A DNA stretch of 58,346 nt from a virus, in the IMG/VR virus record IMGVR_UViG_3300025769_000128, positions 1 to 58,346 of that record; one strand, given 5' to 3'. Position 1 is the first letter of the stretch. Each line of letters begins with the position of its first letter. Positions 295 to 17,514 of this stretch are shown piece after piece. A model generated the notes under the pieces. The model was not told the DNA's origin and searched no databases. It saw only the letters and a list, made by a program, of their open reading frames with translations. The translations under genes were made by a program, and so were the position numbers.

Positions 295-303
295 GTTGGT
301 TGA

Positions 304-336
304 AGAGGGTCGCCAAATGGTGATCCTCTTTTTTTT
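304..336 (+). terminator. rho-independent terminator
   Basis: An 11-bp stem (AGAGGGTCGCC pairing with GGTGATCCTCT, two G-U pairs) closes a 4-base loop AAAT and is followed by a run of eight T. It lies 10 bases after the stop codon of the first gene and separates it from the control region at 340-515. Confidence 0.9.
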
Positions 337-351
337 ACTAAAATGCTATAC

Positions 352-405
352 ATGGTATTCACTGTCAAAAAGTGTGACATTTGCCCCTTACTAGGTTTAC
401 CTTAA
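352..405 (+). CDS. possible 17-aa leader peptide with CxxC
   Basis: A short open frame encoding MVFTVKKCDICPLLGLP. Its ATG ends the string ATGCTATACATG, a variant of the 13-base leader found before the genes at 2180 and 6259, and its 3' half lies in the 48-base element at 373-420. It ends with TAA followed by TAG. The combination suggests a translated leader, but the frame is short enough to be chance. No homology is recognised. Confidence 0.25.
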   Translation: MVFTVKKCDICPLLGLP

Positions 406-420
406 TAGCCTAATGTCACA
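373..420. promoter_or_regulatory. 48-base inverted-repeat element, copy 1
   Basis: The element begins with TGTGACATTTGCCCCTTA and ends with AGCCTAATGTCACA, so its ends are inverted repeats (TGTGACA / TGTCACA). An element of exactly the same length and the same conserved ends lies at 7338-7385. In both copies the right arm contains an ATG. It is a candidate operator or an RNA stem that hides a start codon. It also contains GACATTTG, one mismatch from the Bacteroidota -7 box. Confidence 0.65.
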
Positions 421-487
421 GTTTCAGCGACAAACTTTCTTCTTAAAAGAAGAGAGATATAGTATAACACCACCCTATATTAACTAA
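413..487 (+). CDS. possible 24-aa peptide starting in the 48-base element
   Basis: The ATG in the right arm of the 48-base element opens a 24-codon frame beginning MSQFQRQTFF and ending PPYIN. In the second copy of the element the equivalent ATG opens the 206-residue helix-turn-helix gene (MSHNRN). The parallel makes translation here plausible, but the short length leaves it uncertain. Bases 337-515 contain otherwise only the elements listed. Confidence 0.25.
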   Translation: MSQFQRQTFFLKEERYSITPPYIN

Positions 488-515
488 TCTAACTAACTAT
501 TAAACACCTCAAGCT

Positions 516-635
516 ATGTCTAAAAAACAAGATAGAAAGCAAATTAAAGAAGAAATACTCACGTCTATGTTCGCTATTGGAGCGTTACTCATTGGTTATG
601 GTATTTTGCAAGCATTCGTATACCTTACAAATTAA
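516..635 (+). CDS. small single-span membrane protein, 39 aa
   Basis: A 39-residue protein with a charged N-terminus (MSKKQDRKQIKEE) and one hydrophobic segment at about residues 17-37 (MFAIGALLIGYGILQAFVYL), typical of a single-pass inner-membrane protein with its N-terminus in the cytoplasm. The ATG lies a short distance after an A-rich leader (TATTAAACACC). The next promoter-like element starts immediately after the stop codon. Function unknown; small early phage membrane proteins often act on host processes, but nothing here shows that. Confidence 0.6.
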   Translation: MSKKQDRKQIKEEILTSMFAIGALLIGYGILQAFVYLTN

Positions 636-665
636 TTACGATGCTTCATATATAATATAATAAAC
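636..665 (+). promoter_or_regulatory. promoter-like element (ACGAT / TATATAATATAATAAAC)
   Basis: TTACGAT, four bases, then CATATATAATATAATAAACA, 18 bases before the ATG at 683. It matches the copies at 1481, 2301, 3799 and 5562. The conserved order and spacing across intergenic sites suggest a phage-specific or early promoter. Confidence 0.6.
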
Positions 666-682
666 ATTTAAACCAACTTATT

Positions 683-868
683 ATGCGAAAAATATCTTTC
701 TCTCGCCGCGACTCATTTAAAAAAGTAATCACCATAAATGGTCGCAAGTTCAAGCACTTCAGTTTGCTTAACATACCAAACAACTTCGGATGCCAATCTA
801 CTTCAAATGGTAAAGAAGGTATTTCAGAGTACATTAACTACAAAGGTTTAACTTATTACGCAGAGTAA
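683..868 (+). CDS. hypothetical basic early protein, 61 aa
   Basis: A 61-residue basic protein (N-terminus MRKISFSRRDSFKK) directly downstream of a promoter-like element. It has no recognisable domain, no signal peptide and no membrane segment. Its N-terminus is Arg/Lys/Ser-rich, which could suit nucleic-acid contact. It is followed after two bases by the next gene, consistent with one operon running from 683 to about 1494. Confidence 0.65.
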   Translation: MRKISFSRRDSFKKVITINGRKFKHFSLLNIPNNFGCQSTSNGKEGISEYINYKGLTYYAE

Positions 869-870
869 TT

Positions 871-1050
871 ATGGAAGATCTAAGAAACATGTTAACTATT
901 ATTTCTAGTGGCCGTCGCTATGACGAGTTGACTGAATATGGCCAAGAGTATATAAGATCAAAAGCTAATTACTTATGCAATAAGTTTGATGGGCAAATAG
1001 CCGACACTCATCATGTAATCACTTATGCAAAATTCAAAGGATGGCTATAA
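871..1050 (+). CDS. hypothetical early protein, 59 aa
   Basis: An ATG two bases after the preceding stop codon opens a 59-codon frame (MEDLRNMLTIISSGRRYDEL...), ending with TAA at 1048-1050. The tight spacing supports real coding. The product is a soluble, mixed-charge small protein with Tyr and His near the C-terminus and no recognised motif. Confidence 0.6.
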   Translation: MEDLRNMLTIISSGRRYDELTEYGQEYIRSKANYLCNKFDGQIADTHHVITYAKFKGWL

Positions 1051-1066
1051 CTAAAAATAAATTATT

Positions 1067-1273
1067 ATGAGTAGAGTAAAGTTCAATGGTTTTGAAAACC
1101 ACATAATTAAACAAGCGTTAAATGGTTTTTCAAGCCAAATGGAAGCTGAAATAGAGCAAGCAGAAGCAGATGGTAACAGATCTATATATGCACCTGGTTT
1201 CTTTAATATGATCTGCAAAGATTTAATTGATAAAGTAGATGATATGACACTTAAAAAAGATAGAGGATTATGA
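1067..1273 (+). CDS. hypothetical early protein, 68 aa
   Basis: A 68-residue soluble protein, probably mostly helical (residues 8-35 carry alternating charged and hydrophobic residues). It follows an A-rich leader (AAAAATAAATTATT) and ends in an ATGA overlap with the next gene, so the two are probably translationally coupled. No domain recognised. Confidence 0.65.
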   Translation: MSRVKFNGFENHIIKQALNGFSSQMEAEIEQAEADGNRSIYAPGFFNMICKDLIDKVDDMTLKKDRGL

Positions 1274-1494
1274 ATTATCATTGGAACAAAGACACTATTA
1301 TGTACTTCGTACAATTATCAAGAGAAACTAACATGCAAGAGTTCTCATACAAAGTCATGGACTTCATTGAGCGTGATTGCAGTACTGAAGAAGATGAAAC
1401 ATTCCAAGATCTCTATGACGACCTTATGGATGTAATCTTAAAAGAAATAACCATTGACCGTGCTAAAGAAATACAAAACAAATACGATAAGTAA
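1270..1494 (+). CDS. hypothetical acidic early protein, 74 aa
   Basis: Starts in an ATGA overlap with the stop of the preceding gene. The 74-residue product is acidic and predicted helical (DFIERDCSTEEDETFQDLYDD at about residues 32-52), without a recognised domain. The promoter-like element of the next gene (AATACGAT) is embedded in its last codons, so the 3' end has a dual role. Confidence 0.65.
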   Translation: MNYHWNKDTIMYFVQLSRETNMQEFSYKVMDFIERDCSTEEDETFQDLYDDLMDVILKEITIDRAKEIQNKYDK

Positions 1495-1512
1495 AATATA
1501 ATATAATAAAAT
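1481..1512 (+). promoter_or_regulatory. promoter-like element overlapping a gene end
   Basis: ACAAAACAAATACGATAAG followed by AAAATATAATATAATAAAAT. The first block lies inside the last codons of the preceding gene. The same ACAAAAC(A/G)AATACGAT string occurs at 3791 and 5554, which argues for a functional element rather than coding constraint. Confidence 0.55.
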
Positions 1513-1521
1513 AAACACATC

Positions 1522-1785
1522 ATGAAAACAGAAAATGCAATCAAAGCACTTATTAAAGCGCGTAACGAAAAGTACAATAGTAAGACACTTCACATCAAAG
1601 TATCTGAAGAGCGTAGTTGGTCAAACAAAAAAGTATTAACTATCACTGGTCACGAGGTAGCAGTATACTTCTCTGCTATGGCTAATTTCTTATGCCCAAT
1701 GATCGCAACTTATGTTGAAGTTATTGATAATACAACTTATATTGAAGTTATTGATAATACAACAGTAAAAATTGAGCTTAACTAA
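1522..1785 (+). CDS. hypothetical early protein with duplicated 9-aa segment, 87 aa
   Basis: An 87-residue protein of unknown function (MKTENAIKALIKARNEKYN...). Residues 64-81 are two copies of a 9-residue unit (YVEVIDNTT, YIEVIDNTT), coded by a 27-base tandem duplication. Without it the protein would be 78 residues. The copies differ at Val/Ile, a G/A base difference, which could represent two strain variants placed side by side. Its ATG follows a promoter-like element and the leader AAATAAACACATC. Confidence 0.65.
   Translation: MKTENAIKALIKARNEKYNSKTLHIKVSEERSWSNKKVLTITGHEVAVYFSAMANFLCPMIATYVEVIDNTTYIEVIDNTTVKIELN
1711..1764. repeat. 27-base tandem duplication
   Basis: Copy 1 is 1711-1737 and copy 2 is 1738-1764. 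They share 22 identical bases in the middle, with mismatches at 1714/1741 (G/A) and 1737/1764 (T/A). The duplication keeps the reading frame. Confidence 0.9.
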
Positions 1786-1786
1786 T

Positions 1787-2014
1787 ATGACACCACAAGA
1801 AGAACTAGAGCAGCGTTTAAAGAACCACAAATGGTGGGCATTCATGAGTGATGATCCTTCTGTTGATAAAAAAGCACAAGAAGATTATATGGAGATCATT
1901 AAGCTAATGCGTGATTTCCCTAATCGTGAAGAGGCTTTTGAGTTATACAAAAAGCACTGCCCTGAAGAATTATTTCTTGATGGCTCTTTAGTACGTAAAT
2001 CTATTGGACTATGA
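1787..2014 (+). CDS. hypothetical early protein, 75 aa
   Basis: The frame is open upstream, but the ATG at 1787 (MTPQEELEQR) is preferred because it overlaps the preceding stop as TAATATG and gives a typical helical N-terminus. The 75-residue product is charged and Trp-containing (NHKWWAFMSDDPSVDKKAQ) with no recognised domain. It ends in an ATGA overlap with the gene at 2011. Confidence 0.65.
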   Translation: MTPQEELEQRLKNHKWWAFMSDDPSVDKKAQEDYMEIIKLMRDFPNREEAFELYKKHCPEELFLDGSLVRKSIGL

Positions 2015-2169
2015 CACTAATCACAATTTATAAAATAGCAGACGAGATAGTTATCAAGCATGGTATCTATGTAAGTAAGTCAAAAGACTATTTATCTCTG
2101 CCACCACAATACCAAAAGCAAGTTCGTGAGCGTGTATACAAGCAGCTTACTAATGCTTATATTGGCTAA
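2011..2169 (+). CDS. hypothetical early protein, 52 aa
   Basis: Begins in an ATGA overlap at the end of the preceding gene and encodes 52 residues (MTLITIYKIADEIVIKHGIY...), basic in its C-terminal half (QKQVRERVYKQLTN). The stop TAA overlaps the string ATGCTATACACAT that leads into the next small gene. No domain recognised; coding is supported by the overlaps at both ends. Confidence 0.6.
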   Translation: MTLITIYKIADEIVIKHGIYVSKSKDYLSLPPQYQKQVRERVYKQLTNAYIG

Positions 2170-2181
2170 TGCTATACACAT
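2169..2181 (+). promoter_or_regulatory. 13-base leader motif ATGCTATACACAT, copy 1
   Basis: The motif overlaps the preceding stop codon (TAATG) and its last two bases are the start of the next ATG. Exact copies occur at 6248-6260 and 17619-17631, and a shortened one at 343-353. A 13-base string is not expected to recur by chance in a window this size. Confidence 0.5.
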
Positions 2182-2293
2182 GCGAGAAAGATTACTACAA
2201 TTATTTCACTATATTATTGTGGCACCAACAATAACAGCAATAGTATTTTTCATATGCTGGTTGTTCGCTAAGCTATATTTTCTTATAGTGTAA
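2180..2293 (+). CDS. small membrane protein, 37 aa
   Basis: A 37-residue protein with a short basic N-terminus (MRERLLQLF) and one long hydrophobic span at about residues 11-37 (YIIVAPTITAIVFFICWLF then AKLYFLIV). The ATG is the end of the ATGCTATACACATG leader. A single-pass inner-membrane protein, function unknown. The next promoter-like element follows at 2301. Confidence 0.55.
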   Translation: MRERLLQLFHYIIVAPTITAIVFFICWLFAKLYFLIV

Positions 2294-2300
2294 CAAATTA

Positions 2301-2328
2301 AATACGATCACTTATATATAATATAAAT
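2301..2328 (+). promoter_or_regulatory. promoter-like element (AATACGAT / TATATATAATATAAA)
   Basis: AATACGAT, CACT, then TATATATAATATAAAT directly abutting the ATG at 2329. The short distance would give a nearly leaderless transcript if it is a promoter. Confidence 0.55.
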
Positions 2329-2727
2329 ATGAATAATCAAATCTTAAACAAAGAAACAAGTGTGGCTATGCTTAAAGCATTTGGCTGTACAGAAATATCT
2401 ACTCCACAACAAAAAGCTAATGGCACAGATGTGTGGGAGTTACCAAGACATACTATTATCAAGTATAATGGTAAAGCAAAACCTGGTTGGAAACCTCGCT
2501 TTGCGCTGTATAATAGTGGTTATGTAAGAGTACTACATAGTCATCATAGTAAGCAGTGCTATCAAATCAACCCTACTTATGATCAAAAGTTTTTTTTCAT
2601 TGATAGTCAACTCAATGTGCGTGAGTCTACAAGTAAAATGCGTATGCTTATCTACGGTGATGCCGCGCGATACCAATACCTAGTACAATACATCTTTAAA
2701 AATTACAAAAAATACCTTGAACTATGA
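2329..2727 (+). CDS. hypothetical protein, 132 aa
   Basis: A 132-residue basic protein of unknown function with aromatic-rich beta-like stretches (PRFALYNSGYVRVLHSHHSK at about 64-83) and a helical C-terminus. It has no signal peptide or membrane segment. The ATG directly follows the promoter-like element. It ends in an ATGA overlap with the next gene, the start of a four-gene coupled run to 3789. Confidence 0.7.
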   Translation: MNNQILNKETSVAMLKAFGCTEISTPQQKANGTDVWELPRHTIIKYNGKAKPGWKPRFALYNSGYVRVLHSHHSKQCYQINPTYDQKFFFIDSQLNVRESTSKMRMLIYGDAARYQYLVQYIFKNYKKYLEL

Positions 2728-3038
2728 AAAGTTTAATTGACCTATCACCAATCTTTAATTTCCTTAAAAAGAAAGACGAAGAACAAAAAGAACCAACATT
2801 CACATTGTCTGAAGTAATGGCCATATTGGAAGAAGCTCTTGTGAGATCTGAAGAAGATACTGGAGATATTAACTGGGACGATATAGAATATGATGTAGAT
2901 ATTGATTGGCATAAAAGAATTTGCATTAATAATGTAGATGTTTCAAGTCAACTTGAAGAAGTTTTTAACTCTGTAAATGACTGCTTTGAAAAACTTATTA
3001 CCGACTATGTTGAAATGCAAAAAGAAAATAATAGTTAA
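2724..3038 (+). CDS. hypothetical acidic protein, 104 aa
   Basis: Starts in an ATGA overlap. The 104-residue product is strongly acidic (residues 35-58 rich in Glu and Asp), with a helical C-terminal part. Its composition is DNA-mimic-like in the loose sense of a small, very acidic early protein, but no family is recognised and that idea is inference only. It lies two bases before the next gene. Confidence 0.7.
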   Translation: MKSLIDLSPIFNFLKKKDEEQKEPTFTLSEVMAILEEALVRSEEDTGDINWDDIEYDVDIDWHKRICINNVDVSSQLEEVFNSVNDCFEKLITDYVEMQKENNS

Positions 3039-3040
3039 TT

Positions 3041-3289
3041 ATGTCAGGATACGAAGTTATTAAAGGGAAAAATAAGTATGATCACTATGAAGTTCACATA
3101 CCTATAGAAGAAGTTGGTATTGTATATGGTTCATACGAAGTATGGGATAGGGACTCTGGTGGTTATGTGTTTTACGAAGAAGGCTCGTTGATCTTTGAAG
3201 ACGGCGAGTTGATCGACTATGATGGCATTGCCGAACTACCTGAGTCTATTATTAATGAAATAGCAAAAATTAGAAAAGTAAGTTTATGA
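3041..3289 (+). CDS. hypothetical acidic beta-rich protein, 82 aa
   Basis: An 82-residue acidic protein rich in Tyr, Gly, Glu and Asp with alternating hydrophobic residues suggesting beta strands (EVGIVYGSYEVWDRDSGGYV at about 24-43). It resembles many small phage proteins with a strand-rich fold, but no family is recognised. It ends in an ATGA overlap with the DnaA-like gene. Confidence 0.65.
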   Translation: MSGYEVIKGKNKYDHYEVHIPIEEVGIVYGSYEVWDRDSGGYVFYEEGSLIFEDGELIDYDGIAELPESIINEIAKIRKVSL

Positions 3290-3789
3290 GAGCTTTAGCA
3301 GAAGAACTATACGAGCGTACTAAAGATATGATCAGTGATATTGCTTTCCATGTTATGGATGATCACCATATATCTCATAGCAAAGATCAAGTACTAGCTA
3401 GTATACTAAATGAGTATTATACACTATGGGATAAACCAGTTAAGCTTGAGTACAATCTTAATAATGCAAAAGAGCTGATCTCGCGCGTCGAAATAGATAA
3501 TGCCAATACATTACATAATAAAAAGTTATCAGACAAATCTAGGCTGTCTATTATTGTTCTATATCGCAGTACGTTAGCATATATATTCTATAAGCACTGG
3601 AACATGTCACAAACTCGTATTGGCAATCTATTTAATAGGGACAGAAGTACAGTAGCATATATGGTTTCAGCAACAGCAAATAACATATGGTATTATAATA
3701 AGCAAGATTGTTTTGAGCGTAGAGTTATTGAATACCTATTTGAAGAAGCTGGACTTGACTCACCATTCGATCCTATAAAGGTCAATTAA
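3286..3789 (+). CDS. DnaA domain IV-like DNA-binding protein, 167 aa
   Basis: Residues about 85-135 contain a helix-turn-helix ending in a signature close to that of DnaA domain IV: RIGNLFNRDRSTVAYMV, compared with the known GxxFxxRDHSTV pattern that reads DnaA boxes. The N-terminal 80 residues are helical and unrecognised, and there is no AAA+ domain. It may bind an origin or act as a regulator or a competitor of host DnaA. It is translationally coupled to the gene before it (ATGA overlap), and a promoter-like element follows it. The HTH signature is seen; the function is inferred. Confidence 0.7.
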   Translation: MRALAEELYERTKDMISDIAFHVMDDHHISHSKDQVLASILNEYYTLWDKPVKLEYNLNNAKELISRVEIDNANTLHNKKLSDKSRLSIIVLYRSTLAYIFYKHWNMSQTRIGNLFNRDRSTVAYMVSATANNIWYYNKQDCFERRVIEYLFEEAGLDSPFDPIKVN

Positions 3790-3798
3790 TACAAAACG

Positions 3799-3830
3799 AA
3801 TACGATTAGTTATATATAATATAATAAACA
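3799..3830 (+). promoter_or_regulatory. promoter-like element, best-conserved copy
   Basis: ACAAAACGAATACGAT, then TAGT, then TATATATAATATAATAAAC, followed by the leader AATAAACAC before the ATG at 3839. This copy contains all blocks found in the family and can serve as the reference. Confidence 0.65.
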
Positions 3831-3838
3831 ATAAACAC

Positions 3839-4045
3839 ATGATAGTATTTGTATATCCATCTAAAAAAGTAATGAAAGAAAATGTTGGCAAACCACTTCG
3901 TTATATTGAGACAAGTATGTTTGGCGAAGAATATGTATCTGACGGAAAACTAGTTGGTGCTAATCGACCACACATTACTGGTATTGGCAGAGAGTTCTTT
4001 GCTGAAATAGAAATGGAAAATGGTTTAATCAAAAAAGTTTCTTAA
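3839..4045 (+). CDS. hypothetical protein, 68 aa
   Basis: A 68-residue protein with a Val/Ile-rich N-terminal strand (MIVFVYPSKKV) and a Gly-containing middle. It follows the best-conserved promoter-like element and the leader ATAAACACATG. No family recognised. It lies one base before the next gene, so both are probably co-transcribed. Confidence 0.65.
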   Translation: MIVFVYPSKKVMKENVGKPLRYIETSMFGEEYVSDGKLVGANRPHITGIGREFFAEIEMENGLIKKVS

Positions 4046-4046
4046 A

Positions 4047-4631
4047 ATGAAAACAAAACCACTTAGTAAATACAAGTTGAATAAAATTGAGCTTGGTTTA
4101 GAGCATTGGTTCAGTAAAGCATCTGAACAAGATATTATACAAGGTAAAAAATGGTATAAGTCAGCCAATGAATTAACTACGTCAATAGCTAATAAGTATA
4201 GATACAACAATGAAATAGTTGCATCTGTTATTAGTGCTTTATCTCCTCGTAATAAGTGGCAGCGTAATATTACCGATGCTATACACGTTTTAGATGCGGT
4301 ACAGCGCGATGTACACCATGATCATGTCAAGGTTTGTACATTTAATAATAACAAGTTAAAAGCTTTTGACATTGCAAAAGGTATAAAGTTCATTGATGAA
4401 TCTTCAAGAAAAACATTTTCATTTGTCAAGAATATTGCAAGATTAGATCCAGACTATGTAACAATAGATGTTTGGCATCTTCGTGCTTGTAGTACATTCA
4501 CAAGTGTTCCTAATTATCCAAACAAAACACAGTACGATCAAATAAGTAAACTAACAAAAAGTTTAGCTAAAAAACATAATCTAAAAGGCTATGAGTATCA
4601 AGCCATAATTTGGTGCTCGATAAGAAAATAA
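4047..4631 (+). CDS. conserved phage protein with ALSPRNxW motif, 194 aa
   Basis: A 194-residue basic protein. It carries ISALSPRNKWQRNITDA at about residues 63-79 and TIDVWHLRA near 147-155. I recall this arrangement (SPxxxW, then VDVW with a conserved His or Arg) from phage proteins of unknown function that look like HhH-type DNA glycosylase relatives, but I cannot confirm a family. The product is soluble and mostly helical, with no signal peptide. It is followed at 4639 by the damaged KTSC gene after the usual AATAATAAACACATG leader. Confidence 0.7.
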   Translation: MKTKPLSKYKLNKIELGLEHWFSKASEQDIIQGKKWYKSANELTTSIANKYRYNNEIVASVISALSPRNKWQRNITDAIHVLDAVQRDVHHDHVKVCTFNNNKLKAFDIAKGIKFIDESSRKTFSFVKNIARLDPDYVTIDVWHLRACSTFTSVPNYPNKTQYDQISKLTKSLAKKHNLKGYEYQAIIWCSIRK

Positions 4632-4638
4632 TAAACAC

Positions 4639-4867
4639 ATGGTAAAAGTAACAAACAGTAATTACGATTCTTCTTGGATACAAAAAGCTTCGTACAACCA
4701 CTCAGACAAAACACTATTTGTAATACTTAAAAGCGGATCTTCATATCTGTTTAGTGATATATCTAAAACAGACTTTGATTACTGATTACTTCAATGATAG
4801 TAACTCTCAAGGATCTGCATTTAATAAATTGATCAAGAATAATTATACATTCAAAAAAATTCATTAA
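4639..4867 (+). pseudogene. KTSC-domain protein broken by a 7-base duplication
   Basis: From the ATG at 4639 the frame reads 48 residues, with YDSSWIQKASYNHSDKTL then a FKSG-like segment (LKSGSSYLFSDI), and stops at 4783-4785. The sequence TGATTAC is repeated in tandem at 4776-4782 and 4783-4789. Removing one copy restores a 74-residue frame to a stop at 4865-4867 that adds NSQGSAFNKLIKNNY. Together these match the KTSC domain, a small RNAP/lysyl-tRNA-synthetase-associated module of uncertain function common in phages. Either the gene is truncated in this phage or the duplication is a sequence error. Confidence 0.75.
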
Positions 4868-4872
4868 TTTTG
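4865..4872 (+). promoter_or_regulatory. possible Bacteroidota -7 box before the tRNA genes
   Basis: TAATTTTG matches TAnnTTTG and lies four bases before the first tRNA. No well-placed TTG at -33 is seen (the nearest is at 4829-4831, about 33 bases upstream), so it is only a candidate. Confidence 0.35.
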
Positions 4873-4875
4873 TAT

Positions 4876-4949
4876 GGTCCTTTAGCTCAATTGGTTAGAG
4901 CAACTGACTCATAATCAGTAGGTTGTAGGTTCAAGTCCTGCATGGACCA
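4876..4949 (+). tRNA. tRNA with anticodon CAT (Ile2 candidate, or Met)
   Basis: A 74-base cloverleaf without encoded CCA. Acceptor GGTCCTT pairs with ATGGACC with one T-T mismatch; D-arm AGCTCAATTGGTTAGAGC; anticodon stem ACTGA/TCAGT with loop CTCATAA; T-arm GTAGG-TTCAAGT-CCTGC. CAT can be Met or, after lysidine modification, Ile for AUA codons. The T-arm and anticodon arm look closer to Ile2 (ileX-like) than to elongator Met. AUA is common in this AT-rich genome, which favours that reading. Confidence 0.9.
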
Positions 4950-4953
4950 CTAT

Positions 4954-5027
4954 GCGCCCATAGCTCAACTGGATAGAGCAACAGCCTTCTAAGCTGTAGG
5001 CTACAGGTTCGACTCCTGTTGGGCGTA
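4954..5027 (+). tRNA. tRNA-Arg with anticodon TCT
   Basis: A 74-base cloverleaf, four bases after the first tRNA. Acceptor GCGCCCA/TGGGCGT (one G-U pair); D-arm AGCTCAACTGGATAGAGC; anticodon stem ACAGC/GCTGT with loop CTTCTAA, anticodon TCT reading AGA and AGG; T-arm ACAGG-TTCGACT-CCTGT. CCA is not encoded; both tRNAs are followed by CTA. Confidence 0.95.
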
Positions 5028-5040
5028 CTAAATATATAAT

Positions 5041-5361
5041 ATGAAAGTAAATAAGGAAAGTTATAAGCTTATAAATGAAGCTGTTAACCACGAAGTTTCA
5101 ATTAAGATTATTAATATAGTTAATAAATTTATAGATAGTATAGAAAGTATTGAAGATGGTGGTAGGTATTTAAAGTTAATAAATATGGCTCCAACCATTA
5201 AAGCATTTAACTATAATAAAGATGGTACTTTAAACAGAGAAGACTTTGAGCAGTTCATATATGATCTAATATATGTTAACTACGGAGAGGATATGTTTAA
5301 ACAAGAAATAAATAAATTATCACAATGCGCGAAAAACATTACTTCGGAAAAGAAGGATTGA
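5041..5361 (+). CDS. hypothetical protein, 106 aa
   Basis: A 106-residue protein, largely helical, with Ile/Asn/Lys-rich composition. The ATG at 5041 follows AATATATAAT directly after the tRNA genes, so it may share their transcript. It overlaps the next small gene by 37 bases in a different frame. No family or motif recognised. Confidence 0.65.
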   Translation: MKVNKESYKLINEAVNHEVSIKIINIVNKFIDSIESIEDGGRYLKLINMAPTIKAFNYNKDGTLNREDFEQFIYDLIYVNYGEDMFKQEINKLSQCAKNITSEKKD

Positions 5362-5492
5362 TATTATTGAATATGATTATTGATTTACACCAAACAGTAG
5401 ATACAATACCAAATGACCAAGAGCTTGGTCGAACAATTAGAAAAATATTTAAAGAGTTTGATGAGTACAGAGAACAAATGTCAAGTATGTAA
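5325..5492 (+). CDS. hypothetical helical protein, 55 aa
   Basis: An ATG at 5325, inside the end of the previous gene, opens a 55-codon frame (MREKHYFGKEGLILLNMIID ... IFKEFDEYREQMSSM). The product is an amphipathic helical protein with a good charge pattern, which makes it a better coding candidate here than random overlap. It also overlaps the next zinc-ribbon frame by 32 bases. No family recognised. Confidence 0.5.
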   Translation: MREKHYFGKEGLILLNMIIDLHQTVDTIPNDQELGRTIRKIFKEFDEYREQMSSM

Positions 5493-5622
5493 TAGTTATA
5501 TACCGTCAGGTCTTCGTCATCAATTTATATGTGACAATTGCCTTGTAAATAATACAAAACAAATACGATTAGCAAGATATAATAATATAAACAATAAACA
5601 CAATGGCAGAAACAAAGTGTAA
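5461..5622 (+). CDS. small zinc-ribbon-like protein, 53 aa
   Basis: Two CxxC knuckles (KCQVCNSY and ICDNCLVN) about 14 residues apart suggest a zinc ribbon. A longer start at 5413 is possible, but the ATG at 5461 (MSTENKCQVC) places the knuckles near the N-terminus and reduces overlap with the preceding gene. The C-terminal 18 residues are coded by the promoter-like element of the next gene and are probably not under protein-level constraint. Function unknown. Confidence 0.5.
   Translation: MSTENKCQVCNSYIPSGLRHQFICDNCLVNNTKQIRLARYNNINNKHNGRNKV
5562..5595 (+). promoter_or_regulatory. promoter-like element inside a gene end
   Basis: ACAAAACAAATACGATTAG, then AAGATATAATAATATAAACA. The AT-rich block is slightly rearranged relative to the other copies. 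It leads to the ATG at 5603 via AATAAACACA. Confidence 0.5.
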
Positions 5623-5850
5623 CGGTTGGACAAATTATGCCACATGGCGTATCAACTTAGAAATCATCGAAGACATCGAGTTTGAAACACATCAAACAGC
5701 TGAAGATATTAAAGAGATTGTTGAATCAGTTGTTCTCGATCAATTACCAAAAGAGTGTTGGTTAGCTTATGACTATGCAGGGCATTTATCGATCAAGTTA
5801 ACTTTTATGAAATTGCAGAATACGTTAATGAAAATCAAATTTTAGTATGA
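5603..5850 (+). pseudogene. conserved GWxNYATW protein with a likely frameshift
   Basis: The N-terminus contains CNGWTNYATWRINLEI, a signature I recall from a widespread phage and plasmid family of unknown function (DUF7249-like). The 80-residue frame ends at 5845 with an atypical tail after YDYAG. In the +2 frame, from about 5783, the sequence reads AFIDQVNFYEIAEYV, which matches the expected end of the family, and stops at 5848-5850 in an ATGA overlap with the next gene, as its neighbours do. A one-base loss near 5778-5785 (TATGCAGGGCATTT) would explain this. Both the family call and the frameshift are from pattern recognition only. Confidence 0.6.
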
Positions 5851-6248
5851 CAGACAAGGAATTACGCAAGTTAGCAAAGTATATAGTTGAAGAGCTTACA
5901 ATGCCTAATGAAGATGGTGTTGATCAAATTGGTTATCATCTTACTTTCTTTACCGATGATCAGATGGAAGAGTATGAAAATCTATTGATTAAAAATCAAA
6001 TTGAGCAGTTACAAAGATTGTTAGATGCTACAATAATATCTGATGAAGATGGTATTGATCAAATTGGTTATCATCTTACTTTCTTTACCGATGATCAGAT
6101 GGAAGAGTATGAAAATCTATTGATTAAAAATCAAATTGAGCAGTTACAAAGATTGTTAGATGCTACAATAATATCTGAAGACTATGAAGCAGCGGCTGTT
6201 ATATTAAAGAAAATAAAAGATATTGAGAAACAAATCAAAGACAACTAA
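5847..6248 (+). CDS. hypothetical protein with duplicated 45-aa unit, 133 aa
   Basis: An acidic, helical 133-residue protein. Residues about 21-65 and 66-110 are two copies of a 45-residue unit (with GYHLTFFTDDQMEEYENLLI) that differ at one residue (Val/Ile). They are coded by a 135-base tandem duplication with a single base difference. One-copy length would be 88 residues. The last part (EDYEAAAVILKKIKDIEKQI) is a helix resembling the UvrB/UvrC-motif type of helical hairpin found in small phage proteins. The start is the ATGA overlap with the preceding gene. Confidence 0.65.
   Translation: MTDKELRKLAKYIVEELTMPNEDGVDQIGYHLTFFTDDQMEEYENLLIKNQIEQLQRLLDATIISDEDGIDQIGYHLTFFTDDQMEEYENLLIKNQIEQLQRLLDATIISEDYEAAAVILKKIKDIEKQIKDN
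5908..6177. repeat. 135-base tandem duplication
   Basis: Copy 1 is 5908-6042 and copy 2 is 6043-6177. The only difference I find is G at 5919 against A at 6054. The reading frame is kept. Confidence 0.95.
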
Positions 6249-6260
6249 TGCTATACACAT
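6248..6260 (+). promoter_or_regulatory. 13-base leader motif ATGCTATACACAT, copy 2
   Basis: Overlaps the preceding stop (TAATG) and runs into the ATG at 6259. Read as codons it gives Met-Leu-Tyr-Thr then TGA, which overlaps the next start as ATGA. Confidence 0.5.
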
Positions 6261-6777
6261 GAACATATTTTACCTCCACAGAAATCCATTTAAAGCCGCT
6301 AAATACCAATATAATAAGCATGTTGTTAAAATGGTTTTAGAGTCAGCTCAAATGCTTTGTACCGCACATCATCATTACGGTAATGGCGATAATGTACCTT
6401 ACAAAAAAGCACATTATAATCACCCATCAACTATTTGGGTTAGAGAAAGTAACGAGCATTATGAATGGTTATACTACCACATGCTTGCATTAGGTGCTGA
6501 GTATAAAAAAAGATATAGTAAAACTCATTTAGTTATAGAAAAATGTTTACAACCATTGCTTAATAGACCACCAGGTATACCAAAAGTTAGTTTCAAACAA
6601 CCACCACAATGTATGCCAGATGAATATAAAGCAAATAGTAGTATTGATGCTTATTGGAACTATTATATCGGTGAAAAACACACCGTAGCACATGAATCAG
6701 AAACTATTTATACTAAAAAACCATATATCAATGAAGAAGTTATTAATCCTAGCTCTATTGCTGCCGCTGTACTCTAA
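6259..6777 (+). CDS. conserved phage protein, possible pyrimidine-dimer glycosylase relative, 172 aa
   Basis: The chosen ATG (6259) gives MNIFYLHRNPFKAAKYQYN, which fits the family start better than the open frame upstream. Other signatures are KHVVKMVLESAQMLCTAHHH at about 19-38, HPSTIWVRES near 56-65 and EYKKRYSKTH near 82-91. I recall this pattern from phage proteins sometimes labelled pyrimidine dimer DNA glycosylase; His/Lys/Glu-rich motifs near the N-terminus fit a DNA-processing enzyme, but no activity can be asserted. The last 47 bases overlap the next gene's signal peptide coding. Confidence 0.7.
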   Translation: MNIFYLHRNPFKAAKYQYNKHVVKMVLESAQMLCTAHHHYGNGDNVPYKKAHYNHPSTIWVRESNEHYEWLYYHMLALGAEYKKRYSKTHLVIEKCLQPLLNRPPGIPKVSFKQPPQCMPDEYKANSSIDAYWNYYIGEKHTVAHESETIYTKKPYINEEVINPSSIAAAVL

Positions 6778-6979
6778 TGCACAGGATCGTGCTGATTGGG
6801 CGTATGTAACACCAAACAAGGACACGTTGTTCTTGGAACAAGATGATCCAAACGCTAATCTAAACTTTACAATATGGAAGTCAGATACCACGTGGCAAGG
6901 TTGGAATCCAGTTATTGTACGCGCTCCACGGGAATATATTGCTTATCGCAGACGAACCAATGTAATTGAATTGAAATGA
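6731..6979 (+). CDS. exported small protein with signal peptide, 82 aa
   Basis: The ATG at 6731 is chosen over the longer frame because it gives a textbook signal peptide: MKKLLILALLLPLYSNAQ with a signal peptidase I site after NAQ, typical of Bacteroidota. The mature part is about 64 residues, Trp-rich (RADWAY, FTIWKSDTTWQGWNPV), and probably periplasmic. It overlaps the end of the preceding gene by 47 bases in another frame and the next gene as ATGA. Function unknown; a periplasmic early protein could act in superinfection exclusion, but this is speculation. Confidence 0.7.
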   Translation: MKKLLILALLLPLYSNAQDRADWAYVTPNKDTLFLEQDDPNANLNFTIWKSDTTWQGWNPVIVRAPREYIAYRRRTNVIELK

Positions 6980-7143
6980 AATATGACATTGATCAATGGT
7001 CAACGTGGGCACATATTATTGCCGATGTTGAACTAATGGTTGTTAAAGACAGCCATGGTAAATCAAAAATTGAACTGTTGCAATTATTTTCGCAATATCT
7101 AAATCAGATTATTGATGAAAACAAAGAAACAGCAGAAGCGTGA
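6976..7143 (+). CDS. hypothetical helical protein, 55 aa
   Basis: Starts in an ATGA overlap with the exported protein and encodes 55 residues (MKYDIDQWSTWAHIIADVEL ... YLNQIIDENKETAEA), an amphipathic two-helix pattern. No family recognised. It overlaps the next short frame by 29 bases. Confidence 0.5.
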   Translation: MKYDIDQWSTWAHIIADVELMVVKDSHGKSKIELLQLFSQYLNQIIDENKETAEA

Positions 7144-7234
7144 GTATCACGATGAAGATGTTAAAATTAAAAAGCGTTATAAACGCATATCTAAACAAAA
7201 AATAAATAGATATTACGATGAGCATGATGAGTGA
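7115..7234 (+). CDS. small very basic protein, 39 aa
   Basis: A 39-residue Lys/Arg-rich frame (MKTKKQQKREYHDEDVKIKK, RYKRISKQKINRYY) starting inside the preceding gene. Its composition suits nucleic-acid binding. It is short, and both neighbours overlap it, so coding is uncertain. Confidence 0.4.
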   Translation: MKTKKQQKREYHDEDVKIKKRYKRISKQKINRYYDEHDE

Positions 7235-7355
7235 TTTGTATATCAAATTAATGGAAGAACATTATCATAATTTATCTGAAGAAGAAAAAAATTATTTAAA
7301 AACAACAAACCTCGATCAAATATACTGGGATCAAAACTGTGACAATAGCCCCTAA
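7224..7355 (+). CDS. small acidic protein, 43 aa
   Basis: A 43-residue acidic frame (MMSDLYIKLMEEHYHNLSEE ... WDQNCDNSP) that overlaps the preceding one. Its last codons (TGT GAC AAT AGC CCC TAA) are the left arm of the 48-base element, so this gene ends inside a regulatory structure. No family recognised. Confidence 0.45.
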   Translation: MMSDLYIKLMEEHYHNLSEEEKNYLKTTNLDQIYWDQNCDNSP

Positions 7356-7385
7356 TATATCTTATAATAACAGCCTAATGTCACA
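7338..7385. promoter_or_regulatory. 48-base inverted-repeat element, copy 2
   Basis: TGTGACAATAGCCCCTAA at the left and AGCCTAATGTCACA at the right, the same length and ends as 373-420, with a different AT-rich centre. The right arm holds the start codon of the helix-turn-helix gene at 7378. Pairing of the arms in RNA would cover that ATG. Confidence 0.65.
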
Positions 7386-7998
7386 CAATAGAAATATGGA
7401 GTGGTTAAACAACCGTCGCATTATCTATGTGAAATATCCTTGGTATGATGAACCAACTAAGGTGTTTCCATGGGGATGGTACTATGAAGATGGTACACAT
7501 CAATGCTACGAGTTATTTAGATCTAAAGCTAAGATCACTACTATAAGATCGTTAAAGTGGCATATGTTAGTATTAAAATTTTTAAATAAAGATATTTCAT
7601 ATGATAAGTATTTAGAACTATGTTATTTCCTCATTGATAAAAGAAATAATTTTACCGCAATCACCATACCAAGTGATTTATTACTTAGATTTGCAAACGA
7701 GGTGTTTCAACACCAGTTTCATATGGCGCCTAAAAACAGGTTGCGTAAGGTAATATTTCGTATTGGTAGCGGTCTTACTATCGACGAAAAATTATCTATC
7801 GTAGGTAGTTTGATAGGAAGGTCTAAGCGGATCACTGAGGATGATATTTACCAATGCATGTTAGAGATTAACAACAAAGGAGATAAGATAACTATAAGTG
7901 GTATTGCTAAACTGTTAGGTTGTACACCTCGTACTATCCATAGAAATATGGGTGACGAACTTAAATTAGAGAAAGGTGTATTAAACCAACAGTTATGA
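7378..7998 (+). CDS. helix-turn-helix DNA-binding protein, 206 aa
   Basis: The ATG at 7378 lies in the right arm of the 48-base element; an ATG at 7396 or a GTG at 7339 are alternatives. The N-terminal 60 residues are aromatic-rich (YVKYPWYDEPTKVFPWGWYY) and carry no recognised fold. The C-terminal region has a clear HTH of the kind TISGIAKLLGCTPRTIHRNM at about residues 173-192. It is coupled to the sigma-factor gene by an ATGA overlap. A regulator that binds its own leader is a natural hypothesis, since the same element recurs in the control region at 373-420. DNA binding is inferred from the HTH; the target is a guess. Confidence 0.7.
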   Translation: MSHNRNMEWLNNRRIIYVKYPWYDEPTKVFPWGWYYEDGTHQCYELFRSKAKITTIRSLKWHMLVLKFLNKDISYDKYLELCYFLIDKRNNFTAITIPSDLLLRFANEVFQHQFHMAPKNRLRKVIFRIGSGLTIDEKLSIVGSLIGRSKRITEDDIYQCMLEINNKGDKITISGIAKLLGCTPRTIHRNMGDELKLEKGVLNQQL

Positions 7999-8738
7999 AA
8001 TATTACAATGTAAAAAACTATATAAGATATAAACAAGATATTGATGATCAACCGCATCCAAAAAGATATTGGCAAGATTATACAAGAGATGAACTAATAA
8101 TTAAATTCTTACCGCTAGTAGAAAGTATTGCTAGAAGCTTTGCGACTGGAGATCAAGCATCGGGTGTTATGAATATTGAAGATCTTATACAAGAAGGAAG
8201 TATTGGCCTTATTAAAGCTGTAGATAAATGGGATGTTGATTTTGCTTTATCAAAGCTCGACCCAGAAAAAAGTATTAAGAGTTTCTTTTCAAAGCGTATC
8301 AAGGGTGCAATACGAAGAGCTATTGATATAAACAGAGCTGGTATGCGTATACCAGAACACAAGATAAATGAGATACGCAACAGCGAAGATGAAGATCAAG
8401 AGAAAGTTCAAATGTTCTTTAATTCAATATTTAAAAGTATCGATGCTGATACAACTGGGGCTTATTATAATATTCCAGATTTAAATAAAGAATATCGTAT
8501 TGATATGATTAATAGCTTTTTACTTGGCCTCATGAAAATGGTGTTAGACCACAATGAATATCATGTTTTGAGACTAAGCTATGGATTAGACTGTCGTAAG
8601 CATTCAGCAAAAGAGATAGCATTCATAGTAGGTATTAAAGGAACAAGTTCGCATGTTAGAATATCTCAACTTAAAAAGCAAGCAATAAATAAAATATCTG
8701 AAAAAATAAAATTATCTCAAGTTATTGATTTCTTATAA
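7995..8738 (+). CDS. sigma-70-family RNA polymerase sigma factor, 247 aa
   Basis: Region 2 is visible at about residues 33-110: a helix with LPLVESIARSF, then IEDLIQEGSIGLIKAVDKWD (core-binding 2.1-2.2) and SFFSKRIKGAIRRAI (2.3-2.4, -10 recognition). Region 4 lies at about 183-238 with EYHVLRLSYGL and SAKEIAFIVGIK followed by RISQLKKQAINKI (HTH). Region 1.1 is absent and region 3 is short. Such factors redirect host RNA polymerase to phage promoters. The conserved ACGAT/TATATAATATAATAAAC elements, or unidentified late promoters, are possible targets. The gene starts in an ATGA overlap with the HTH gene. Confidence 0.9.
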   Translation: MKYYNVKNYIRYKQDIDDQPHPKRYWQDYTRDELIIKFLPLVESIARSFATGDQASGVMNIEDLIQEGSIGLIKAVDKWDVDFALSKLDPEKSIKSFFSKRIKGAIRRAIDINRAGMRIPEHKINEIRNSEDEDQEKVQMFFNSIFKSIDADTTGAYYNIPDLNKEYRIDMINSFLLGLMKMVLDHNEYHVLRLSYGLDCRKHSAKEIAFIVGIKGTSSHVRISQLKKQAINKISEKIKLSQVIDFL

Positions 8739-15776: not shown

Positions 15777-17514
15777 AGGAGAAGATTACCCAGAGTGGGC
15801 AGAATCTGATATTTATAAAAAGACAATCAGTGGTGGATATTTATTAGAGGGCGAAACGCCGCGCGATGCTTATATGCGCGTTGCAAGGACCGTTGCGATG
15901 CATTTAGAACGCCCTGAGATGGCCGAAAAGTTTTTTGAATACGTCTGGAAGGGTTGGCTGTGTTTGGCGTCCCCCGTATTGTCTAATACAGGCACAACGC
16001 GTGGTTTGCCGATCAGTTGTTTCGGTATCGATGTCGCAGATTCAATAGCAGACATTGGAAGTAAAAACGATGTCGCAGATTCAATAGCAGACATTGGAAG
16101 TAAAAACCTTGAGATGATGTTGTTGGCTAAGCACGGTGGTGGTGTTGGTATTGGTATTAACCAAATCAGACCAGCTGGAGCAAACATTAAAAACAACGGT
16201 ACATCAGATGGTATTGTTCCATTTTGTAAGATATATGATTCAAGTATATTAGCTACAAACCAAGGATCAGTACGTCGCGGTGCTGCAAGCGTTAACTTAA
16301 ATATAGAGCATAAAGACTTTGAAGATTGGTTAGAGATTAGAGAACCTAAAGGCGATGTCAATCGACAGTCACTTAACTTACATCAATGTGCTATCGTTGG
16401 TGATAAGTTTATGCGTAAGCTTCTTGATGGGGATAAGGTAGCAAGAAGAAAATGGGGTAAGCTATTACAAAAGCGTAAAGCAACTGGTGAACCTTATATT
16501 ATGTACAAGGGTAATGTGAATAAGCAAAACCCTAATATGTATAAGAACAGCGGTCTAAAAGTACATATGACAAATATATGTTCTGAGATCGTTCTTCATA
16601 CAGATGAAAACCATAGCTTTGTTTGTTGTTTATCTTCTTTAAACCTAGCAAAGTATGATGAGTGGAAAGGTACAAACCTTATCTACGATGCAACTTGGTT
16701 TTTAGATGGAGTATTAGAAGAGTTTATACAAAAAGCAAAAGGTAAAATAGGATTTGAAAATTCAGTAAGATCAGCTGAGAAAGGTAGAGCTTTAGGTCTT
16801 GGTGTCCTTGGTTGGCACACGTATTTACAAAATAAAGGAATACCCTTTGAAGGATTATTAGCGCAATATGAAACTAGAAAGATATTTTCTCAAATTAAAA
16901 TCGAGACAGAGAGAGCGTCTATGGCGCTTGCAGAATCATTTGGTGAACCACTTTGGTGTGTTGGATCGGGCTTTAGAAATACTCATCTACGGGCCATTGC
17001 TCCTACTGTTAGTAATAGCAAACTTAGCGGTAACGTTTCTCCTGGTATTGAGCCTTGGGCTGCTAATGTTTTTACGGAACAAAGCGCGAAGGGTACATTT
17101 ATTCGTAAAAACCCTTCTTTAAAACAAGTTTTAGAAGATCTTGAATTAGACAATGAAGATATTTGGGATAGAATACTTGCAGACGGAGGATCAATACAAT
17201 ATATTGAGGAGCTTGATGATCATGTTATTGGTGATTGGGATATACCTGTTAAAGAAGTCTTTAAGACTTTTAAAGAGATTAATCAACTCGAAGTTGTTAA
17301 CCAAGCAGGTATTCGCCAGCAATACATTGATCAGAGTGTTTCGTTAAACTTAGCTTTCCCAGCGGATACAGATCCCAAGTTTATTAATAAAGTACACCTT
17401 GATGCTTGGAAAAAAGGTATCAAGACATTATACTATGTAAGAACTGAATCTGTGCTCCGCGGAGATATTGCTAAGAAAGTAACAGATGAAAACTGTTTAA
17501 GTTGTGATGGATAA
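15754..17514 (+). CDS. nrdA: ribonucleotide reductase class I large subunit, 586 aa
   Basis: NrdA reduces ribonucleoside diphosphates. Active-site residues are visible: N274, C276 and E278 (TNICSEI) and redox cysteines C89 (PISCFG) and C291/C292 (FVCCLSSLN). The C-terminal pair C581/C584 (NCLSCDG) passes electrons. The N-terminal ATP-cone is absent, so dATP inhibition may be lost. Residues 93-105 and 106-118 are a perfect 13-residue duplication (DVADSIADIGSKN) caused by a 39-base tandem repeat a few residues after C89, where the family has one copy. If real it would enlarge an active-site loop; if not, the true length is 573. Confidence 0.93.
   Translation: MASNRWIKGEDYPEWAESDIYKKTISGGYLLEGETPRDAYMRVARTVAMHLERPEMAEKFFEYVWKGWLCLASPVLSNTGTTRGLPISCFGIDVADSIADIGSKNDVADSIADIGSKNLEMMLLAKHGGGVGIGINQIRPAGANIKNNGTSDGIVPFCKIYDSSILATNQGSVRRGAASVNLNIEHKDFEDWLEIREPKGDVNRQSLNLHQCAIVGDKFMRKLLDGDKVARRKWGKLLQKRKATGEPYIMYKGNVNKQNPNMYKNSGLKVHMTNICSEIVLHTDENHSFVCCLSSLNLAKYDEWKGTNLIYDATWFLDGVLEEFIQKAKGKIGFENSVRSAEKGRALGLGVLGWHTYLQNKGIPFEGLLAQYETRKIFSQIKIETERASMALAESFGEPLWCVGSGFRNTHLRAIAPTVSNSKLSGNVSPGIEPWAANVFTEQSAKGTFIRKNPSLKQVLEDLELDNEDIWDRILADGGSIQYIEELDDHVIGDWDIPVKEVFKTFKEINQLEVVNQAGIRQQYIDQSVSLNLAFPADTDPKFINKVHLDAWKKGIKTLYYVRTESVLRGDIAKKVTDENCLSCDG
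16030..16107. repeat. 39-base perfect tandem duplication in nrdA
   Basis: Copy 1 is 16030-16068 and copy 2 is 16069-16107, identical base for base and in frame. Confidence 0.97.

Follow-up and report, generated by a model that had tools for sequence, protein, structure and literature searches.

A 46–48-bp inverted-repeat element as the probable operator of a helix-turn-helix protein in uncultured marine phages

The phage record IMGVR_UViG_3300025769_000128 carries two 48-base elements with matching inverted ends, one at the head of the early region and one at the start of a gene for a helix-turn-helix (HTH) protein, and the question is whether these elements are bound as DNA, and by which protein, or whether they act as folded RNA. 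The window, i.e. the stretch of DNA analysed here, comprises 58,346 nucleotides and is the whole IMG/VR record. The preliminary description, which had read the elements as either an autoregulatory operator or a translation-blocking stem, placed both correctly (Table 1). The pattern TGTGACAN{30,34}TGTCACA had exactly these two matches in the window, both of the form TGTGACA-N34-TGTCACA, and none in 100 dinucleotide-shuffled windows. Also a fuller consensus with three or fewer mismatches found the same pair alone. The PWM score was 63.5 for the first, upstream copy and 57.7 for the second, start-codon copy.

The centres of the two copies had been described as unrelated. This is true of the middle part of about 16 nt, and the copies diverge also at positions 8–10, but the inner boxes GCCCCT (positions 11–16) and AGCCTAA are shared in addition to the outer boxes TGTGACA and TGTCACA. 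The claim that the ATG of the right arm opens a frame in both copies was likewise correct for one of them: the ATG at 7378 in the second copy is the start of the HTH open reading frame, but the ATG at 413 in the first copy opens a frame of 24 codons alone (413–487). The upstream copies of relatives that correspond to the first copy do not open any recurrent gene, and the ATG at 413 is incidental. The coupling of the HTH gene to a sigma factor gene was borne out, the two frames overlapping by 4 nt and being translationally coupled. A terminator-like hairpin lies just upstream of the first copy.

Table 1. Coordinates of the two element copies and associated features in the window.
Feature	Coordinates	Strand	Remarks
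Terminator-like hairpin and T-tract	302..331	+	13 pairs, 6 of them G-C, then a T run; consensus match only
D-type (upstream) candidate operator copy	373..420	+	TGTGACATTTGCCCCTTACTAGGTTTACCTTAATAGCCTAATGTCACA; flanks aaaag / gtttc; head of early region
P-type (start-codon) candidate operator copy	7338..7385	+	TGTGACAATAGCCCCTAATATATCTTATAATAACAGCCTAATGTCACA; last 8 bases ATGTCACA are the first codons of the HTH gene
HTH protein, 206 aa	7378..7998	+	Candidate binder; three-helix HTH at C-terminus, about residues 148–205
Sigma-70 family factor	7995..8738	+	Pfam Sigma70_r2 E 3e-9; PHROG 351 E 6e-23

The element, whose absence from sister genomes had been named beforehand as evidence against the idea, is present in related phages. 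A scan of IMG/VR with the stricter pattern TGTGACANNNGCCCCTN{10,34}TGTCACA identified 103 matching stretches, and the extracted copies included 86 distinct sequences, nearly all of them 46–48 bp long, the exceptions being one of 33 bp and one of 45 bp. The reversed control pattern gave 0 matches in each record searched. Across these copies the element consists of two inverted half-sites of about 18 bp, TGTGACAnWAGsCynTTA, around a variable AT-rich spacer, 46–48 bp in total. The dyad is imperfect, since most copies are asymmetric (A/A) at position 8. For the GTDB genomes, a search limited to the 18-nt left half yielded five stretches, among them three complete elements on two contigs of Bacteroidota bins (two of the elements share one Saprospiraceae-bin contig) and one near-complete element in a short contig of an Aliivibrio bin; a half-element from Algoriphagus (L153) has no right half and was discarded as a chance half-site.

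A typical record has one start-codon (P) copy, mostly 46 bp long, and one or two upstream (D) copies, mostly 47–48 bp long, 5–9 kb upstream of it (distances from listed coordinates, on a circular map if required). The upstream copies of the three-copy genomes that were inspected lie in non-coding DNA: one is within or close to a divergent intergenic region, and the other is in most cases followed at a short distance by a promoter-like motif that is itself repeated, TACGA-N9-GATAATATA. When genomes lacking the exact pattern were scanned with the PWM, degenerate copies were found at P and D positions in all 13 regions, ten of which carry both a P and a D copy. The degenerate copies scored 15–51, and no score above 5 was obtained from 30 shuffles of up to 14 kb. 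One clade has the inner box GCT instead of GCC, in P and D copies alike. P and D copies of one genome were more similar than in shuffled pairings (p = 0.003, uncorrected for phylogeny), although this covariation is modest and few clades lie behind it.

The early region itself contains further features. The promoter-like motif TACGAT-N~8-TATAATATA occurs in five copies at 637, 1483, 2303, 3801 and 5564 (+), upstream of small early ORFs, and relatives repeat the same motif through the early region in the form given above. It is presumably unlike the usual Bacteroidota promoter, and could be read by a phage or host sigma factor. GCTATACAC, which is recurrent near the elements in relatives, showed no enrichment in the window. 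A small early ORF at 3286–3789 has a DnaA C-terminal HTH-like domain (Pfam Bac_DnaA_C) and its product is a possible origin-binding protein, and a tRNA-Met and tRNA-Arg pair is situated at 4876–5028. Two tandem duplications were also observed in the window, one of 135 bp (97% identical; 5900–6169) within the ORF 5847–6248 and an exact one of 39 bp (16029–16106) within the ORF of the ribonucleotide reductase large subunit.

The position of the P copy is tied to one gene. Some 70 relatives have the element across the start codon of a gene homologous to that of the 206-aa HTH protein. The same holds at the 29 loci that were identified solely through the protein, every one of which begins with ATG-TCA-C in register with the right half, the left half being degenerate in several of them. 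The second codon of the HTH gene was TCA in 48 of 48 genes, compared with 23% of the serines elsewhere in the same genes; many of these 48 genes were found via the element, while the 29 protein-found loci were not. Of the 50 records selected because they contain the element, an HTH homologue (44–71% identical) is encoded in 48, the two exceptions being a 54-kb fragment and a MAG in which the contig with the element ends shortly after it. Each of these 48 records has one homologue, with the exception of G028, where two similar HTH genes near the record ends (loci L057 and L076) each have a start-codon element; this pair may be a duplication or an assembly artefact. Across proteins only about 45–70% identical the start codon of the regulator is hard-wired into the candidate operator, coding and regulatory sequence being tightly coupled.

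We read the 46–48-bp element as a probable DNA operator whose most likely binder is the HTH protein, which would repress the HTH–sigma operon and control early transcription. Of the two alternatives in the preliminary description, the bound dyad or autoregulatory operator is well supported by the comparative evidence, i.e. the co-occurrence with the HTH gene, the family-wide overlap with its start codon, the conserved upstream site and the flips of an asymmetric half-site. These flips concern the box GCCCCT, which is present in exactly one half of the P copy in 58 of 70 members of the protein tree: in 39 it is on the upstream side and in 19 on the start-codon side, with 12 having it in neither half. 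On the tree the GCCCCT half changes side relative to the gene at least six times, and one such flip, with full support, separates the window from its nearest relative.

The translation-blocking stem is disfavoured. In that explanation the left arm of an RNA hairpin would pair with the arm containing the AUG and block translation of the HTH protein, and the AUG does lie in the 3' arm in all start-codon copies. As isolated 48-mers the RNAs of the two window copies also fold better than shuffled sequences (z about -3; -12 kcal/mol for the first and -8.5 kcal/mol for the second), but within its actual flanking sequence the second copy showed no advantage over shuffles (z 0.19). The pairing at positions 1–7 of exact copies is fixed by their selection and is not evidence. 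Position 8, by contrast, pairs in only one of 52 P copies and ten of 52 D copies, remaining unpaired in 93 of 104 intact elements, and position 9 pairs in 12 of the 52 P copies. The degenerate clades break positions 1–3 (position 1 pairs in 3 of 17 and position 3 in 13 of 17) and compensating changes are absent. The idea that the mismatches at position 8 and in the flanks could be conserved hairpin bulges was dropped, as the ATG forces position 8 on one side in P copies and the flank pattern tracks the location class. Furthermore, the element occurs also in non-coding DNA with its inner boxes equally conserved, no match was found in Rfam, and the repeated flips of the GCCCCT half, unexpected for a directional RNA feature, count against RNA. 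Control by such a hairpin is consequently improbable, even if the hairpin formed on paper by the isolated 48-mers makes a minor or secondary effect on translation possible.

If the element is an operator, the identity of its binder has to be considered. At E ≤ 0.001 the HTH protein of the window had no match among the Pfam and PHROG families. Its best profile matches were HTH_11 and HTH_23; HTH_11 was matched weakly, at E ≤ 0.1, by 69 of the 70 members, the window protein being below the curated cut-off, and HTH_3 was absent among the families listed. In the AlphaFold2 model (pLDDT 90, pTM 0.67) residues 148–205 resemble the N-terminal HTH domains of TetR and DtxR with Z 5–6.3, values that are common for HTH domains. 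Apart from the HTH, no part of the protein had a confident match in searches of PDB folds, whether these were run with the whole protein or with the N-terminal part, and the BFVD model A0A516MIB4 resembles the whole protein (E 2e-11). By portal protein the nearest named phages are Elemovirus (Flavobacterium phage elemo etc.) and Cellulophaga podoviruses, with about 42% identity, and an uncultured podovirus reaches 51%. No homologues of the HTH protein or the sigma factor were detected in GenBank phages, nor did tblastn with the HTH protein find any in GenBank phages and plasmids.

The HTH protein could also be a mere neighbour, with the element bound by the phage sigma factor and RNA polymerase as a promoter-like site or by a host regulator of the CRP/FNR type. 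In 83 of the 84 loci with enough sequence the sigma gene follows the HTH gene within 1.5 kb, and because the two genes are nearly always adjacent, co-occurrence alone cannot separate the HTH protein from the sigma factor as the partner. As the genes travel together, a sigma or host factor is a possible binder. The second copy even contains a match to GTGACA-N18-TATAAT, but such sigma-70-like matches are at chance level in the region (47 found, 50.4 expected), and the centres of the copies are variable, without a shared -10-like box; a promoter inside the element was therefore rejected. The TGTGA and TCACA boxes are like those of CRP/FNR sites (TGTGA-N6-TCACA), and this resemblance to CRP half-sites speaks for a host regulator. 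In both window copies, however, the boxes are separated by 38 bp and not 6 bp, the inner GCC boxes are conserved, and the candidate binder is phage-borne. The five stretches of the GTDB left-half scan also argue that the element is not a general host site. We consider a binder other than the HTH protein unlikely.

Two further explanations keep the element as a DNA site and differ in its purpose. It could be an origin or partition site of the iteron or parS kind, with the HTH protein as an autoregulating initiator or centromere binder; initiators and ParB-like proteins often autoregulate, there are 1–3 copies per genome, and one of them is near the divergent region where the GC skew of the window turns. 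The skew follows gene direction here and is for that reason not independent evidence of an origin. The copies are few and are located at the gene start or upstream of promoter-like motifs, iteron clusters are absent, and this function is very unlikely. The inverted ends, variable centres and recurrent mismatches would fit also recombination or mobile-element sites, either attC-like or inverted-repeat ends. The P copy nevertheless keeps its place at the HTH start throughout the family, the stretch between D and P copies is the same kind of early region wherever this was examined, and there is no common crossover region, since the two centres within one genome differ; the chance that the elements are such sites is negligible. 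A resemblance to CRISPR repeats was set aside, the sites being solitary and without an array.

The operator of the HTH protein is thus the preferred interpretation. The element, its conservation across the family, its fixed position at the HTH start, its upstream repeat and its co-occurrence with the HTH gene were established by sequence comparison, and the mechanism is built on these. The HTH protein, most likely the binder, would act as a dimer or larger oligomer. Of a half-site of about 18 bp the C-terminal HTH could by itself cover just a part, and the N-terminal domain, which is without a fold match, is assumed to make another contact with the DNA. With the start-codon copy occupied, transcription would be prevented from entering the HTH–sigma operon, resulting in negative autoregulation. 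At the upstream copy or copies the bound protein would switch off or adjust early transcription, which would be turned down once the HTH protein accumulates. We infer repression as the effect, although the sequence gives no readout of repression versus activation.

Several known systems have parts of this arrangement. In phage lambda the HTH regulators cI and Cro act at the OR and OL operators, at their own gene and in early control regions, and are autoregulatory. The phage here similarly has an HTH regulator with candidate operators at its own gene and in the early control region. The lambda operators are 17-bp dyads in threes, whereas here there is a single 46–48-bp dyad with half-sites of about 18 bp, placed in the start codon; unlike in lambda the phage has its own sigma factor, and no sequence kinship to cI or Cro was detected. 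Half-sites of AraC-type regulators, about 17–18 bp and spanning two successive major grooves, are like the present ones in length. In AraC each monomer contains two HTH motifs and the half-sites are usually direct, while one HTH was identified here and the half-sites are inverted. In mycobacteriophage L5 a single phage repressor recognizes the stoperators, short sites that recur throughout the genome; these are dozens of asymmetric 13-bp sites, compared with one to three dyads of 46–48 bp at fixed places in the phages studied here.

Autoregulated phage operators are of a known kind. The present case differs in the length and bipartite form of the dyad, in its invariable position within the start codon of the regulator, in the unclassified regulator family and in the coupling to a phage sigma factor. 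Within a limited set of literature, nothing relevant on the paired motif or on a flavobacterial phage operator was found, nor any described gene-control circuit for this uncultured marine phage group. A more far-reaching and rather doubtful possibility is that the P and D sites act jointly over the 5–9 kb between them, for example by looping, as an early-to-middle switch that sets the dose of the sigma factor; the HTH proteins might then constitute an undescribed family of master regulators with an unclassified N-terminal domain and two- or three-point operators in a large group of uncultured marine Bacteroidota phages.

For this large group of uncultured marine phages the analysis offers a testable transcription switch, in which both the candidate regulator gene and the exact DNA site are named. 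The element may also serve as a sequence tag for the phage group and its HTH–sigma operon.
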